A DNA stretch of 34,554 nucleotides from Elusimicrobiota bacterium (GTDB lineage Bacteria; Elusimicrobiota; Elusimicrobia; 2-02-FULL-39-32): the NCBI GenBank assembly GCA_021730935.1, contig JAKFYJ010000041.1:1-34554 (forward strand), given 5' to 3'. The stretch's first letter is position 1. Every line of letters starts with the position of its first letter. The position numbers and the translations under genes were made by a program. Shown one piece after another: positions 1,502 to 25,747 of the stretch. The notes under the pieces are model-generated. The model worked only from the letters and a program-made list of their open reading frames with translations, was not told where the DNA came from and made no database searches.

Positions 1502-1526
1502 TTGCATTATTACGGAAAGAACACGA

Positions 1527-1697
1527 AGCGGAGATTTTCTTCTTTGAACGCTAAACGCGCGGCTTTAAGCGAGTGATTTTTTATTCATAATTCCTTTGGA
1601 GCGTTGTAGCACGACAAACGAAGTGGCGTGCTATATGAGCGACTCAATAAAAAATTGCGAGCGTTGCGCGTTAGTGAAAAGAAGAAAATCGGAGCGG
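1527..1697. repeat. long imperfect inverted repeat (about 170 bp) between genes
   Basis: Matched blocks pair in nested order: ATTTTCTTCTTT 1534-1545 with 1678-1689; AACGCGC 1554-1560 with 1666-1672; ATTTTTTATT 1576-1585 with 1646-1655; and TAGCACG 1607-1613 with 1627-1633 at the tip. Mismatches and small bulges separate the blocks. The stretch has no convincing gene. It could be a MITE-like relic, a structured RNA or a recombination site. Confidence 0.6.
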
Positions 1698-1706
1698 CTG
1701 AGCTGT

Positions 1707-1925
1707 ATGAATAAACAAAGATATTCGCATTATGTTATGAAGAAGATATCTGAAGGAGAATCGGACATCCGTAAGGGTAAAACATTATCTCATGAAGAAG
1801 TTGGAAGAAGGTTGATGAAACTGCTTGAAAAAGCAGAGGATGATATTGCTAAAAAACAGACGCGGCCTATGAAAATATTTCTGAAAGAGTTTAAAGCCCG
1901 TTATAGGATTTCAGAGAAAAAATAA
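1707..1925 (+). CDS. small antitoxin-like protein, unknown
   Basis: 72 residues from ATG 1707. The frame extends back to a TTG at 1596, but that part runs through the long inverted repeat and translates to unlikely protein, so it is excluded. The core SEGESDIRKGKTLSHEEVGR resembles the 'E-x-I-x-x-G-x-x-x-S-x-E-E-V' helix-turn of many small type II antitoxins. It is followed by a long basic helix (LMKLLEKAEDDIAKK) and a basic tail (FKARYRISEKK). No toxin-like partner is adjacent; the next gene is a cupin. Start and function are uncertain. Confidence 0.45.
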   Translation: MNKQRYSHYVMKKISEGESDIRKGKTLSHEEVGRRLMKLLEKAEDDIAKKQTRPMKIFLKEFKARYRISEKK

Positions 1926-1927
1926 TA

Positions 1928-2206
1928 GTGAGACTCGATCAACATAAAATCAAAAAATCCTGGGCCTCGCGCGGATATTCTTGCGGGCTTTGGGTGGACC
2001 CTCCGAGGCAGATTTGGGTGGATTATGTGCACGATGTGGACGAGCTCTTGATGGTGGCGGAAGGTAAACTTCGGCTTGAGATTTCGGGGCAATCGAAAGA
2101 GATCGGGCCTGGCGAAGAATGTTTCATTCCGGCCAAAGCACTTCACACGGTGGAGAACATCGGCGGGACAACGGCGAAATGGCTTTATGGATATAAGAAA
2201 AAATAA
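1928..2206 (+). CDS. small single-domain cupin protein
   Basis: 92 residues, probably starting at GTG 1928, two bases after the previous stop. The sequence follows a minimal cupin: strand WVDYVHDVDELLMVAEGKLRL, the turn IGPGEECFIPAKALHTVEN, then a final strand KWLYGYKKK. The first cupin motif normally has His-x-His; here the place is held by Val-Asp-Glu-Leu. Only the motif-2 His (ALHTVEN) is clear, so metal binding may be altered. Single-domain cupins bind small molecules or act as isomerases or regulators; the substrate cannot be told. Base composition is closer to the metabolic genes to its right, so it may mark the boundary of the core chromosome. Confidence 0.75.
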   Translation: MRLDQHKIKKSWASRGYSCGLWVDPPRQIWVDYVHDVDELLMVAEGKLRLEISGQSKEIGPGEECFIPAKALHTVENIGGTTAKWLYGYKKK

Positions 2207-2228
2207 TGCTGGAATTTAGGGAGATATT

Positions 2229-2489
2229 ATGGATCCAGATGTGAAAGCTATTGCGGAAATGACTCAGTCCGGCGGTTTCACGTTTGGTTCCATCATGGTG
2301 TCAATGCTCGTGAGCGGCATCGGTTTTGTTCTTTTTAAATATGGCCGCAAACAAGGGCGTTCACTTCAAGTCACCTTCGGCGTTATCCTCATGATTTTCC
2401 CCTATTTCATTTACGATATCAAATCCATGCTCCTGATCGCGGGCGGGCTTTGCGCGGTCCTATATCTCCTCTTAAAAAAGGGGTTTTAA
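2229..2489 (+). CDS. small three-helix membrane protein
   Basis: 86 residues, ATG preceded by GGGAGA. Three hydrophobic segments are visible: about 19-37 (GSIMVSMLVSGIGFVLFKYG), 48-63 (VTFGVILMIFPYFIY) and 67-83 (MLLIAGGLCAVLYLLL). The pattern Gly-Ser-Ile, Tyr-Gly-Arg-Lys-Gln and then Ile-Phe-Pro-Tyr-Phe recalls a group of roughly 80-residue proteins often loosely labelled amino acid transport protein. That label has little support, so I do not assign a function. It lies 8 bp before the likely yaeQ start and may be its operon leader. Confidence 0.65.
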   Translation: MDPDVKAIAEMTQSGGFTFGSIMVSMLVSGIGFVLFKYGRKQGRSLQVTFGVILMIFPYFIYDIKSMLLIAGGLCAVLYLLLKKGF

Positions 2490-2497
2490 ATCCGCCC

Positions 2498-3025
2498 ATG
2501 CAGATCCGCTGTTCCGTTCACCTGGGCCAGTCAGCAAAAAAACTTGTGCTCGTGAGCCAGGAAACGGAGACGGCGGAACACATGGCTTTGAAGCTGGCGG
2601 CATTCATCCTTTTCTTCGACGAAAATCCCCAGGTTTCCATCAGTTCCAAAAACCCCGCGATCTCTGACCAGGAGTTTAGGCCGGACTTGATCGCTTTGGA
2701 TGAGGCCGGAGCGACCAAGCTCTGGATTGAGTGCGGGAATGTGGCCACCCACAAGATGGACAAACTCATCCGCAGAAACAGGAACGCCCGCATCGCGGTC
2801 ATGAAAGGCACCGTCAGGGAAGGCAACAACCTGCGCGACTCCTTTGAGAAGAACGATGTTCCCAATTCGGAACGGGTGGAGATCTTCGCGTTCCCTGAAG
2901 GCCAAATTCAGGAATGGGTGGCCGCCATGTCGGACGCGGTGGAAATTTATGGCGAACCTTCCGGACACAGTTTTAATTTGGTGGCCAATGGGGTTCCGTT
3001 TTGTTTTGATTTCGTGAGGGTATGA
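2498..3025 (+). CDS. yaeQ: YaeQ family protein
   Basis: 175 residues from ATG 2498. An earlier in-frame start at 2450 would overlap the previous gene by 40 bp and is less likely. The YaeQ pattern is present: E-T-A-E-H-M-A-L-K-L-A-A-F with ILFFDEN following, then FRPDLIALDEAG, LWIECG and HKMDKLIRR. YaeQ has a PD-(D/E)xK nuclease-like fold, and the Asp of RPDL and the Glu of IECG fit that core. Its biochemical role is unsettled. Its stop overlaps the start of the GGQ release-factor-like gene by 4 bp (ATGA), so they are co-translated. In E. coli yaeQ also lies directly before arfB (yaeJ), which supports both calls. Confidence 0.72.
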   Translation: MQIRCSVHLGQSAKKLVLVSQETETAEHMALKLAAFILFFDENPQVSISSKNPAISDQEFRPDLIALDEAGATKLWIECGNVATHKMDKLIRRNRNARIAVMKGTVREGNNLRDSFEKNDVPNSERVEIFAFPEGQIQEWVAAMSDAVEIYGEPSGHSFNLVANGVPFCFDFVRV

Positions 3026-3381
3026 ACCTCAACGAAAATTTCCCCGTCTCTCAAGGGAAATTGGATCAGCTCCTTGCCCGCATCAAACAATTGAACATTG
3101 ATGTCCGAACCATCAGCGAACAATTCGCCCGGGGCGGCGGCAAGGGCGGCCAGAAAATAAACAAGACGGAGAACGCGGTGATTTTGACTTATCCCCCTCT
3201 GGACCTGCAGGTCAAGGTTCAGCGCGAACGCCAGCGTTCTTTGAACCGGTTTTTGGCTTTGCGCGAACTGGTGGACCAGATCGAGATGAAAATTTCTCCC
3301 CAAACTTCTCAGCGCCTCAAAGACATTCAAAAAATCAGAAAACAGAAAGACCGCCGCGCGCGACGGCATCTTGGTGTGTAG
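3022..3381 (+). CDS. arfB: GGQ-domain release-factor-like protein (ArfB/YaeJ type ribosome rescue)
   Basis: 119 residues. The peptidyl-tRNA hydrolysis loop is clear: RGGGKGGQKINKTENAV around residues 37-53, with GGQ and the NKT that normally follows. A charged C-terminal tail (KIRKQKDRRARRHLGV) fits the mRNA-channel tail that lets ArfB-type proteins enter stalled ribosomes without reading a stop codon. There are no codon-recognition domains, and the length is close to the ArfB and MTRFR families. It overlaps yaeQ by 4 bp. The TAG stop (3379-3381) is supplied by a REP palindrome whose centre supplies the dinB start. The name arfB rests on the family and yaeQ adjacency; a related release-factor-like subfamily is possible. 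Confidence 0.8.
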   Translation: MNLNENFPVSQGKLDQLLARIKQLNIDVRTISEQFARGGGKGGQKINKTENAVILTYPPLDLQVKVQRERQRSLNRFLALRELVDQIEMKISPQTSQRLKDIQKIRKQKDRRARRHLGV

Positions 3382-3405
3382 GGGCGATTCATGAATCGCT
3401 CCTCC
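3378..3405. repeat. REP palindrome, copy 1 (arfB-dinB junction)
   Basis: Left arm GTAGGGGCGATTCA (3378-3391), right arm 3392-3405, with two differences from the perfect complement. It contains the TAG stop of the upstream gene (3379-3381), an AGGGG (3380-3384) 6 nt before ATG, and the ATG of dinB (3391-3393). Stop and start are in the same reading frame, separated by three codons. Confidence 0.9.
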
Positions 3406-4632
3406 AGAGACCGCGTCATCCTTCATGTGGACATGAACGCTTATTTCGCTTCCGTCGAGCAGAAGTCCACGCCGTCTTTGCGAGGCAAACCCATCGTTGT
3501 CGTCGCGGATTCCCGCCGCCGTTCCGTCATCCTCACCGCTTCCTATGAAGCCCGAGCTTTTGGCGTGAAAACGGGCATGAATCTTTATGAAGCAAAAAAA
3601 CTTTCCCGCGAGATCATTGCCGTGGACGGGAACACGGACAAATATATGGACGCGACGGCGCAAATTTTGGAAGTCCTGGAATCTTTCACGGATGTGGTGG
3701 AGATGAACTCCTGCGACGAAGCGTTTTTGGATGTGACGGGGAGCTTGAAATGCTTTGGGACGGACGGTTTCGGGATCGCGGCGCTGGTTCAGCAAAAGGT
3801 GAGCCGACAGATCGGGCTTCCTTGTTCCGTAGGAGTCGCGCCCAACAAAGTTCTGGCCAAAATGGCTTCAGAAGTCAAAAAGCCCAACGGGATCACGGTC
3901 GTCCTTCCTGAAAATGTTCCGGCGTTCCTCTCAGAAATGCCCGTGGAGAAGGTTTCCGGCATCGGGCGCAAAATAAAAGAAAAATTAAACGACCTCGGCA
4001 TTAAAACCTGCGCAGAGCTTGGTCGATCAGAGATCGGATTCCTGGAACACCATTTCGGCGTCTGGGCTTATTGGCTGAAAAAAGTGGGGCTTGGGAGGGA
4101 CATGGATCCCGTTAAAAAAAATTCAGACGCTGACTTTGAAAAATCCATGGGCCACAGCACGACTTTTCCCCGCGACACAACAGATCCGGAAATCCTGAAA
4201 TCTTATCTGCTCCGCCTGAGTGAAAAAGTGGCGTTCCGTCTTCGCAGGCGCGGACTCGAGGGCCGCATCGTTTCTCTGGTGATCCGATACAAAGATTTCA
4301 CCACATTTTCCCACGAGCACCGCTTTTTTGACCCCATGAACGACGGGTTTGAAATTTTCAGCGCGGCTTTGAAGATCATGGAAAAAACTGTCCTGGAACA
4401 ATCGGTCCGGCTGATCGGGGTGAGTGTTTCAGGAATGGTTCCAACGCAGTGGCAGGAATTTTTATTTGAGGCGATGGGCCGGAGGCGCAGGGTGAACGGT
4501 GTCACCGACGAGATCAATAAAAAGTTCGGACGGTTCACGGTGAAACCTGCGAGCCTTCTTTTTGCTGAGAAGCACGGCCTCTTGGAGCCGCCCATTCCCC
4601 CTTTCATCTCGGCGCGCAGAATATTTGGCTGA
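3391..4632 (+). CDS. dinB: DNA polymerase IV (Y-family)
   Basis: 413 residues. Error-prone translesion polymerase. Catalytic residues are visible: Asp14 in HVDMNAYFASVEQ, with Phe19 at the steric-gate position that excludes ribonucleotides, and Asp109-Glu110 in MNSCDEAFLDVTGS. The palm and fingers are followed by the helix-hairpin-helix (VEKVSGIGRKIKEKL) and the little-finger domain (from about residue 235). Only one start is possible: an in-frame TAG lies 12 bp upstream and no other start codon comes before Asp14. The ATG is therefore the one in the REP palindrome. The arm AGGGG may serve as a weak ribosome binding site. Co-transcription with yaeQ and arfB is likely. No LexA-type operator was recognised. 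Confidence 0.95.
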   Translation: MNRSSRDRVILHVDMNAYFASVEQKSTPSLRGKPIVVVADSRRRSVILTASYEARAFGVKTGMNLYEAKKLSREIIAVDGNTDKYMDATAQILEVLESFTDVVEMNSCDEAFLDVTGSLKCFGTDGFGIAALVQQKVSRQIGLPCSVGVAPNKVLAKMASEVKKPNGITVVLPENVPAFLSEMPVEKVSGIGRKIKEKLNDLGIKTCAELGRSEIGFLEHHFGVWAYWLKKVGLGRDMDPVKKNSDADFEKSMGHSTTFPRDTTDPEILKSYLLRLSEKVAFRLRRRGLEGRIVSLVIRYKDFTTFSHEHRFFDPMNDGFEIFSAALKIMEKTVLEQSVRLIGVSVSGMVPTQWQEFLFEAMGRRRRVNGVTDEINKKFGRFTVKPASLLFAEKHGLLEPPIPPFISARRIFG

Positions 4633-11126: not shown

Positions 11127-11154
11127 GTACGGGCGATTCATGAATCGCCCCTAC
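11127..11154. repeat. REP palindrome, copy 2 (leuC-leuD junction)
   Basis: Arms 11127-11140 and 11141-11154 are complementary except at the fourth base. On the minus strand it reads GCTGTAGGGGC, then GATTCATGAATC, then GCCCGTAC. The TAG at 11153-11151 is the leuC stop codon. The central ATG opens an eight-codon frame (MNRPYGKV) ending just before leuD. Confidence 0.9.
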
Positions 11155-12565: not shown

Positions 12566-12593
12566 GCAGGGGCGATTCATGAATCGCCCCTAC
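12566..12593. repeat. REP palindrome, copy 3 (sdhB-leuC junction)
   Basis: Arms 12566-12579 and 12580-12593 are complementary except at the second base. On the minus strand the TAG at 12592-12590 is the sdhB stop codon, preceded by CTG exactly as in copy 2. The central ATG opens a 15-codon frame that overlaps the leuC start out of frame. Confidence 0.9.
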
Positions 12594-25558: not shown

Positions 25559-25747
25559 ATGATAAAAATTAAGCAAGAGGTCAAAAATCTATTGTCCCGA
25601 TTGCCGGACAACTGTTCCCTCGAAGACATTCAATATCATCTTTATGTCATACAAAAAGTAAACCGGGGGCTTCAGGATTTTAAAAAAGGCCAGTTTTACA
25701 CGCAGGACCAAATTGATAAACGAATGTCAAAATGGACCGGAAGGTAA
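25559..25747 (+). CDS. type II antitoxin (partner of ParE/RelE-like toxin)
   Basis: 62 residues, with AAAGGAGAG ahead of ATG 25559. The sequence is a short helical protein (IKQEVKNLLSRLPDNCSLED, then HLYVIQKVNRGLQDFKKGQ) ending in FYTQDQIDKRMSKW. This 'Q-x-Y-x-x-x-E/Q-x-x-x-R-x-x-K-W' end is typical of small antitoxins that wrap a RelE/ParE toxin. It has no obvious DNA-binding domain. The toxin gene starts 16 bp before its stop, so translation is coupled and the antitoxin is made first. The pair is bounded by 39-bp direct repeats. Confidence 0.78.
   Translation: MIKIKQEVKNLLSRLPDNCSLEDIQYHLYVIQKVNRGLQDFKKGQFYTQDQIDKRMSKWTGR

Follow-up and report, generated by a model that had tools for sequence, protein, structure and literature searches.

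Can a dispersed palindromic repeat provide both the stop codon of one gene and the start codon of the next, and how would it come to do so? The question is raised by a 28-bp element at the boundary between a gene for a release factor (RF) domain protein and dinB in an Elusimicrobiota genome (assembly GCA_021730935.1). The element lies in contig JAKFYJ010000041.1, of which the whole stretch of 34,554 nucleotides (the window) was analysed. The initial annotation proposed that a single REP palindrome supplies TAG, AGGGG and ATG at this boundary, that a mobile-type repeat has thus become a complete translational junction, and that this exceeds the intergenic role usually ascribed to REPs. Features relevant to this proposal are listed in Table 1.

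Table 1. Position of the repeat, its constituent signals, neighbouring genes and related features in the window
Feature	Position	Strand	Evidence and remarks
GTAG-type 28-bp palindromic repeat	3378..3405	+	left arm unaltered, two changes in right arm; ~26 genome copies, 0 in control
Stop codon of RF-domain gene, i.e. TAG of the repeat	3379..3381	+	same position used by 9 other source-genome copies and 4 in congener G002
AGGGG, weak ribosome-site-like stretch	3380..3384	+	6 nt 5' of ATG; duplex energy
ATG at repeat centre, only plausible dinB start	3391..3393	+	codon listing; native Met of G002 aligns with Arg6 (AGA, 3406-3408)
RF-1/GGQ-domain gene, 119 aa, upstream partner	3022..3381	+	PF00472, 8e-16
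dinB, DNA polymerase IV-like, 413 aa, downstream partner	3391..4632	+	PF00817, PF11799, PF11798, PF21999; NF002677 above cut-off
Second repeat copy (L011)	11127..11154	-	its TAG closes leuC, ahead of leuD
Third repeat copy (L012)	12566..12593	-	its TAG closes sdhB-like gene, ahead of leuC
REP-associated tyrosine transposase-like fragment, contig edge	31..489	+	PF01797, 22 bits (cut-off 23); NF047646, 36.2 bits (cut-off 80)

The element reads GTAGGGGCGATTCATGAATCGCTCCTCC and carries GTAG at its left end (3378-3381), its consensus being G[TC]A[GC]GGGCGATTCATGAATCGCCC; with 28 bp it falls within the size range of GTAG-type REPs (~20-40 bp). Coordinates and open reading frames agree with the proposed anatomy: all three signals are contained in one palindrome, and TAG and ATG share a frame and are separated by 9 nt, a few nucleotides in one orientation as expected of a coupled pair, provided that both genes are cotranscribed, which is assumed here. 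Codon-by-codon listing reveals that ATG 3391 is the first ATG, GTG or TTG after the TAG, and that GTG 3427 (codon 13), immediately 5' of Asp14, follows as the next possible start. The claim that dinB has no other usable start is thereby borne out, and translation is predicted to begin at 3391. The downstream ORF bears IMS, IMS_HHH and IMS_C domains of Y-family polymerases and matches NF002677 (DNA polymerase IV), and the RF-domain protein gives only weak, sub-cutoff matches in NCBIfam, ArfB among them.

As a palindrome, this copy is imperfect. Its right arm contains GCTCCTCC in place of GCCCCTAC, and the predicted RNA hairpin is for this reason weaker than that of a perfect copy (-13.8 versus -20.3 kcal/mol). 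We considered the possibility of a special hairpin at the junction and rejected it, since folding of the region is unremarkable relative to shuffled sequences (z -1.31) and the native start region of congener G002 is not more open (opening energy 18.9 kcal/mol, compared with 14.5 in the source genome). Duplex energy of AGGGG is -5.6 kcal/mol versus -11.8 for the native G002 ribosome site; the gap narrows to -10.8 versus -12.1 when a longer 16S tail is used. An Rfam search returned tRNA as the sole match.

Copies of the repeat were gathered by pattern searches and their loci extracted as stretches. Three occur in the window (0.00 expected in the shuffled window), two of which flank leuC. About 26 are present in the source genome with differing flanks, and none was found with the reversed-pattern control. 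Most of these copies reside at gene ends, as in GTAG-type REPs, their number being lower than in classical REP-rich genomes. Weak pattern matches within ORFs (L017, L028, L032, L033, L035, L036 and the similar pair L024/L034) were left out of the junction evidence. With at most one mismatch, the repeat core has 7 matches in congener G002 and 2 in congener G001; the other 38 relatives searched yielded one match in all, with one mismatch. Related GTAGGGGC...GCCC(C/G)TAC palindromes are scattered sporadically elsewhere in the class. Presence of the repeat at orthologous sites varies between congeners, and for two loci (L007 and L016) no orthologs were found in the four genomes searched. The multi-copy nature of the palindrome, far beyond that of shuffled sequences, is thus confirmed, with the reservation about its right arm made above.

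Several copies deserve separate description. One repeat lies inside gatA and another ends it (L001, ORF 1522-3018, minus strand); the C-terminal region of GatA contains VGATHASPLP, the peptide that a related GTAGGGGC palindrome encodes in frame 1. A further copy (L031, G000:C6, about 25570-25597) encodes part of a PolA-like N-terminus (MTTHSVRATHESPLLLLIDAYG), and the proteins of relatives begin with MPK or LPK. The same convergent junction is occupied in the source genome (L020) and in G002 (L066); in one genome TAG closes the cupin gene, in the other the gene that faces it. Downstream of panD, where the source genome has a GTAG-type repeat, G002 possesses another long palindrome (AGGGGACACCTTACTTAATTCGCTGAATTAAGTAAGGTGTCCCCT; L083, G002:C76).

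We then asked what the RF/dinB junction looks like in relatives. Gene order YaeQ - RF - dinB is conserved in both congeners and in G006, a member of the same family. No repeat is present in G002, where the two genes overlap at ATGA (GGCATGAACCGCGTC) behind an AAGGAGG ribosome site; a GTGA overlap, likewise without the repeat, occupies the junction in G006. Residues 7-11 of the source DinB (DRVIL) align with residues 2-6 in G002 (NRVIF), so that the position of native Met is now taken by an arginine. The RF protein is 3 residues shorter at its end than in G002, which means that insertion was not perfectly neutral, and since the two DinB proteins are only ~63% identical, the exact insertion point cannot be read. 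Comparison with this empty site shows that the repeat has apparently replaced the native ATGA overlap and that the native dinB ATG is gone. Orthologous dinB genes do begin elsewhere, about six codons further in. Such starts had been named as evidence against a repeat-derived junction; insertion predicts precisely this difference, and the reading is not refuted by it.

We consider it probable (about 0.78) that a dispersed GTAG-type repeat entered at or just before the dinB start, at a native ATGA overlap, and that its in-frame ATG took over. Entry of the repeat, loss of the native start and takeover by the repeat ATG would have followed one another in this order. GTAG set directly before ATGA would give NN|G TAG, the exact stop phase of the upstream gene. 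The upstream protein would stop at once, near its native end, any change would be confined to the third position of its final codon, and the downstream ATG would survive, so that the spot just before ATGA would be the least harmful site of insertion. At dinB, the central ATG of the repeat would be in frame and serve as the new start, the native ATG being lost and the first DinB residues (about MNRSSR) being new and repeat-supplied. In the transcript, AGGGG would be held in the hairpin stem, with ATG in or beside the loop. Termination at TAG would place a ribosome over the left arm, which would open the hairpin and allow restart 9 nt downstream, weakly aided by AGGGG. Reinitiation is strongly distance-dependent according to reporter work (PMC10666635); for this reason the native -4 overlap probably couples the two genes more strongly than does the junction at dinB, where restart at +9 nt is probably less efficient.

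Use of TAG was scored across copies. Ten of 26 source-genome copies close a gene at repeat position 2, namely gatA, panD, genes for a polysaccharide deacetylase and an epimerase, pepP, the RF gene, leuC, the sdhB-like gene, kdpB and a cupin gene (names from domain matches and sequence inspection); the stop is TAA in the epimerase copy. Four more copies do so in G002. Among genes reading into a repeat, 14/17 enter it in the TAG frame, far above chance (p = 5e-5 against equal thirds), a count that rests on our reading of ORF data and on three frames that may differ in tolerance. As for the remaining three, two source-genome genes continue through the repeat in frame 1 (L021 and L029) and one ends a base later (L006). 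Where orthologs without the repeat could be compared, repeat-ended proteins stop 0-3 residues from the orthologs' ends. Of seven same-strand junctions that allowed comparison, six correspond to a -4 or -1 overlap in one or more relatives. Each of the seven has G as the last base of the codon preceding TAG, in agreement with the first base of the repeat. That many copies end genes with their own TAG can be explained by insertion before ATGA, because the stop phase is then set automatically; no preference of a transposase for stop codons is therefore needed. This geometric reason fits most sites.

A preference of this kind is nevertheless conceivable. The transposase of the repeat might target stop codons or TAG-like bases, in which case TAG would be partly native and its phase would reflect target choice instead of selection among random insertions. 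The ends of gatA, panD, the sdhB-like gene and lexA, which coincide exactly with those of their orthologs, are consistent with such targeting, as is the native TAG that ends gatA in both congeners and panD in G001. Elsewhere, however, the relatives' native stops are TGA or TAA (pepP, leuC, the sdhB-like gene, lexA, xseB), so TAG was mostly brought in by the repeat. Moreover, some copies are situated in frame 1 inside or at the start of genes (polA, the stretch within gatA), which implies insertion at other sites too. We regard targeting of stop codons as unlikely, and prefer insertion just before ATGA.

Use of the central ATG presents a different picture. Its frame joins that of the downstream gene in 7/17 cases (p = 0.33, again on our reading of ORF data), i.e. 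at chance, and ATG as an enriched feature of the repeat was dropped. A start at the repeat ATG is forced in dinB and in a G002 gene for a membrane protein (L070), whose next in-frame start candidate is GTG at repeat position 149; in its source-genome ortholog (L037), ATG is lost and the start lies further in. At three more places (L003, L006 and L065) the repeat ATG probably starts exported-looking proteins. The respective protein starts are MNRPYGMVLGLLSTAVFIMAC, MNRPYIFVLALISAVLFSAVKA and MNRPCIIAIFMFSLFGCAG, the last one in G002 and with MKFRTVILIFSGFFLQGCAG in its G001 ortholog. Repeat-coded MNRP(Y/C) probably opens these proteins and contributes a basic residue to the beginning of the signal peptide. 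At L006, a TRL-family gene upstream stops within the same repeat, and the downstream ORF has no Pfam match. Full stop-plus-start junctions are rare, being confined to dinB and L006 in the source genome, with a near-case at L065 in G002. Use of the ATG as a start thus appears opportunistic. What stands of the "complete translational junction" is that TAG and ATG of the dinB junction are both repeat-derived; such junctions are uncommon among copies, and AGGGG is a weak ribosome site.

The chance phase of ATG, like the weakness of AGGGG and its sequestration by the hairpin, would suit the idea of a plain intergenic REP with fortuitously fitting TAG and ATG and no translational role, dinB being either poorly expressed or started at GTG 3427. 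A start directly before Asp14 would, however, delete a segment conserved in all close orthologs, the dinB frame is unbroken across 413 codons with full domain matches, and the TAG phase exceeds chance, which together render this idea improbable. A chance palindrome or a misjoin, conceivable in a draft metagenome-type assembly of 96 contigs, is scarcely credible in view of the many near-identical copies, their absence from controls and the identical gene order across the junction in three relatives.

Among known repeats, we classify the element at dinB as REP-like and of the GTAG type, with supply of a start as an added use. Like GTAG-type REPs (Di Nocera et al. 2013, PMC3733652; Nunvar et al. 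2010, PMC2817692), it is a short palindrome with GTAG at one end, its dispersed copies are mostly found at gene 3' ends, and some lie within genes, DNA polymerase genes among them. Unlike them, it is almost symmetric (GTAG...CTAC or GTAC), has only ~26 copies, can use its central ATG as a start codon and resides in a genome that yielded only a fragment of a transposase-like gene. Termini of GTAG-type REPs "often provide" TAG to flanking ORFs (PMC3733652). Stop supply has accordingly been known since 2013, and the claim of a more than intergenic role retains its novelty only for the start: in the open-licence papers covered by our literature search, no REP was reported to supply a start codon, and nothing relevant was found on the exact repeat sequence or on Elusimicrobiota palindromes.

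In E. coli, a gene is translated less when a REP lies within 15 nt of its stop codon (Liang et al., as cited in PMC12306157). Such REPs resemble the present case in that the ribosome must meet a hairpin at the stop codon; at RF/dinB, in contrast, the stop belongs to the repeat and the second gene begins inside it. Rickettsia palindromic elements, as described in PMC3733652, are likewise palindromes turned protein-coding, comparable to the MNR(P) starts, the PolA N-terminus and the stretch inside GatA encoded by the source-genome repeat. They differ in sequence and phylum, and at dinB coding starts from the ATG of the repeat. Termination-reinitiation overlaps (PMC10666635) share the proximity of stop and start in one operon, the native G002 junction being a classical -4 overlap, whereas the RF/dinB spacing is +9 nt, the ribosome-site-like stretch is different and all these parts derive from the repeat.

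The transposase-like fragment at the contig edge is at most a candidate for acting on the GTAG-type repeat. Its ORF, open to the contig edge, contains a GTAG-like palindrome (GGGCAGGCACGGGGGCCTGCCCCTAC) that is translated through. Two full PF01797 matches are present in G002; TAGGGGC and GCCCCTA are absent from L176, the one G002 PF01797 locus scanned.

In congener G001, the RF/dinB junction carries a palindrome unrelated to the GTAG-type repeat (L062/L197, G001:C35:16040-16109). It belongs to a second family of 58-79 bp, whose ends ATCCCACCACCTG...CAGGTGGTGGGAT are conserved and whose inner hairpins vary. A strict pattern search of 235 class genomes detected 7 copies each in G001 and G002, 5 in G018, 2 in G146 and 1 in G148, and none in the source genome or with the reversed control. 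Besides L062/L197, copies of this family are located in L184, L185, L187, L189, L190, L193, L195, L198, L201-L203 and L206-L209. Among the 22 distinct listed copies, 18 (from G001, G002 and G018) read NTGA-TCCC...GGG-ATGA, in fuller form TGA-TCCCACC...GGTGGG-ATGA. In these 18, TGA is in stop position, preceded by a frame of at least 50 codons in 14 (short in L185, L187, L207 and L209), and ATG opens a downstream frame, interrupted in L189 by a stretch of Ns. A TTA...AA-like context surrounds the other four copies (L205 of G018, one in G148 and two in G146). Flanking gene pairs, named by sequence inspection, include thiC/PHP, pyrG/kdsA, yggS/proC, gcvPA/gcvPB and RF/dinB.

Members of this family look as if they had entered ATGA gene overlaps and duplicated the ATGA in doing so; among the loci examined for empty sites, one was found at RF/dinB only. 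We give even odds to the reading that at least two unrelated palindromic families in this Elusimicrobiota genus act as insertable gene-junction cassettes, which would enter stop/start overlaps and leave each neighbour with its own stop and start. As part of that reading, the GTAG-type repeat would be an imperfect cassette (TAG by phase, ATG sometimes) and the second family a clean one, and the latter finding may matter more than the GTAG-type junction itself.

Operons are rich in genes that share stop and start bases, and such sites should be closed to insertions. Empty-site comparisons suggest that mobile palindromes can open overlap junctions with little damage to either protein. They also suggest why GTAG repeats end genes so frequently, and how mobile DNA can replace a start codon together with the first residues of a protein. 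Gene starts adjoining such repeats are easily misannotated. Stop supply by such repeats being already known, the less familiar part is supply of the start codon together with the stop.
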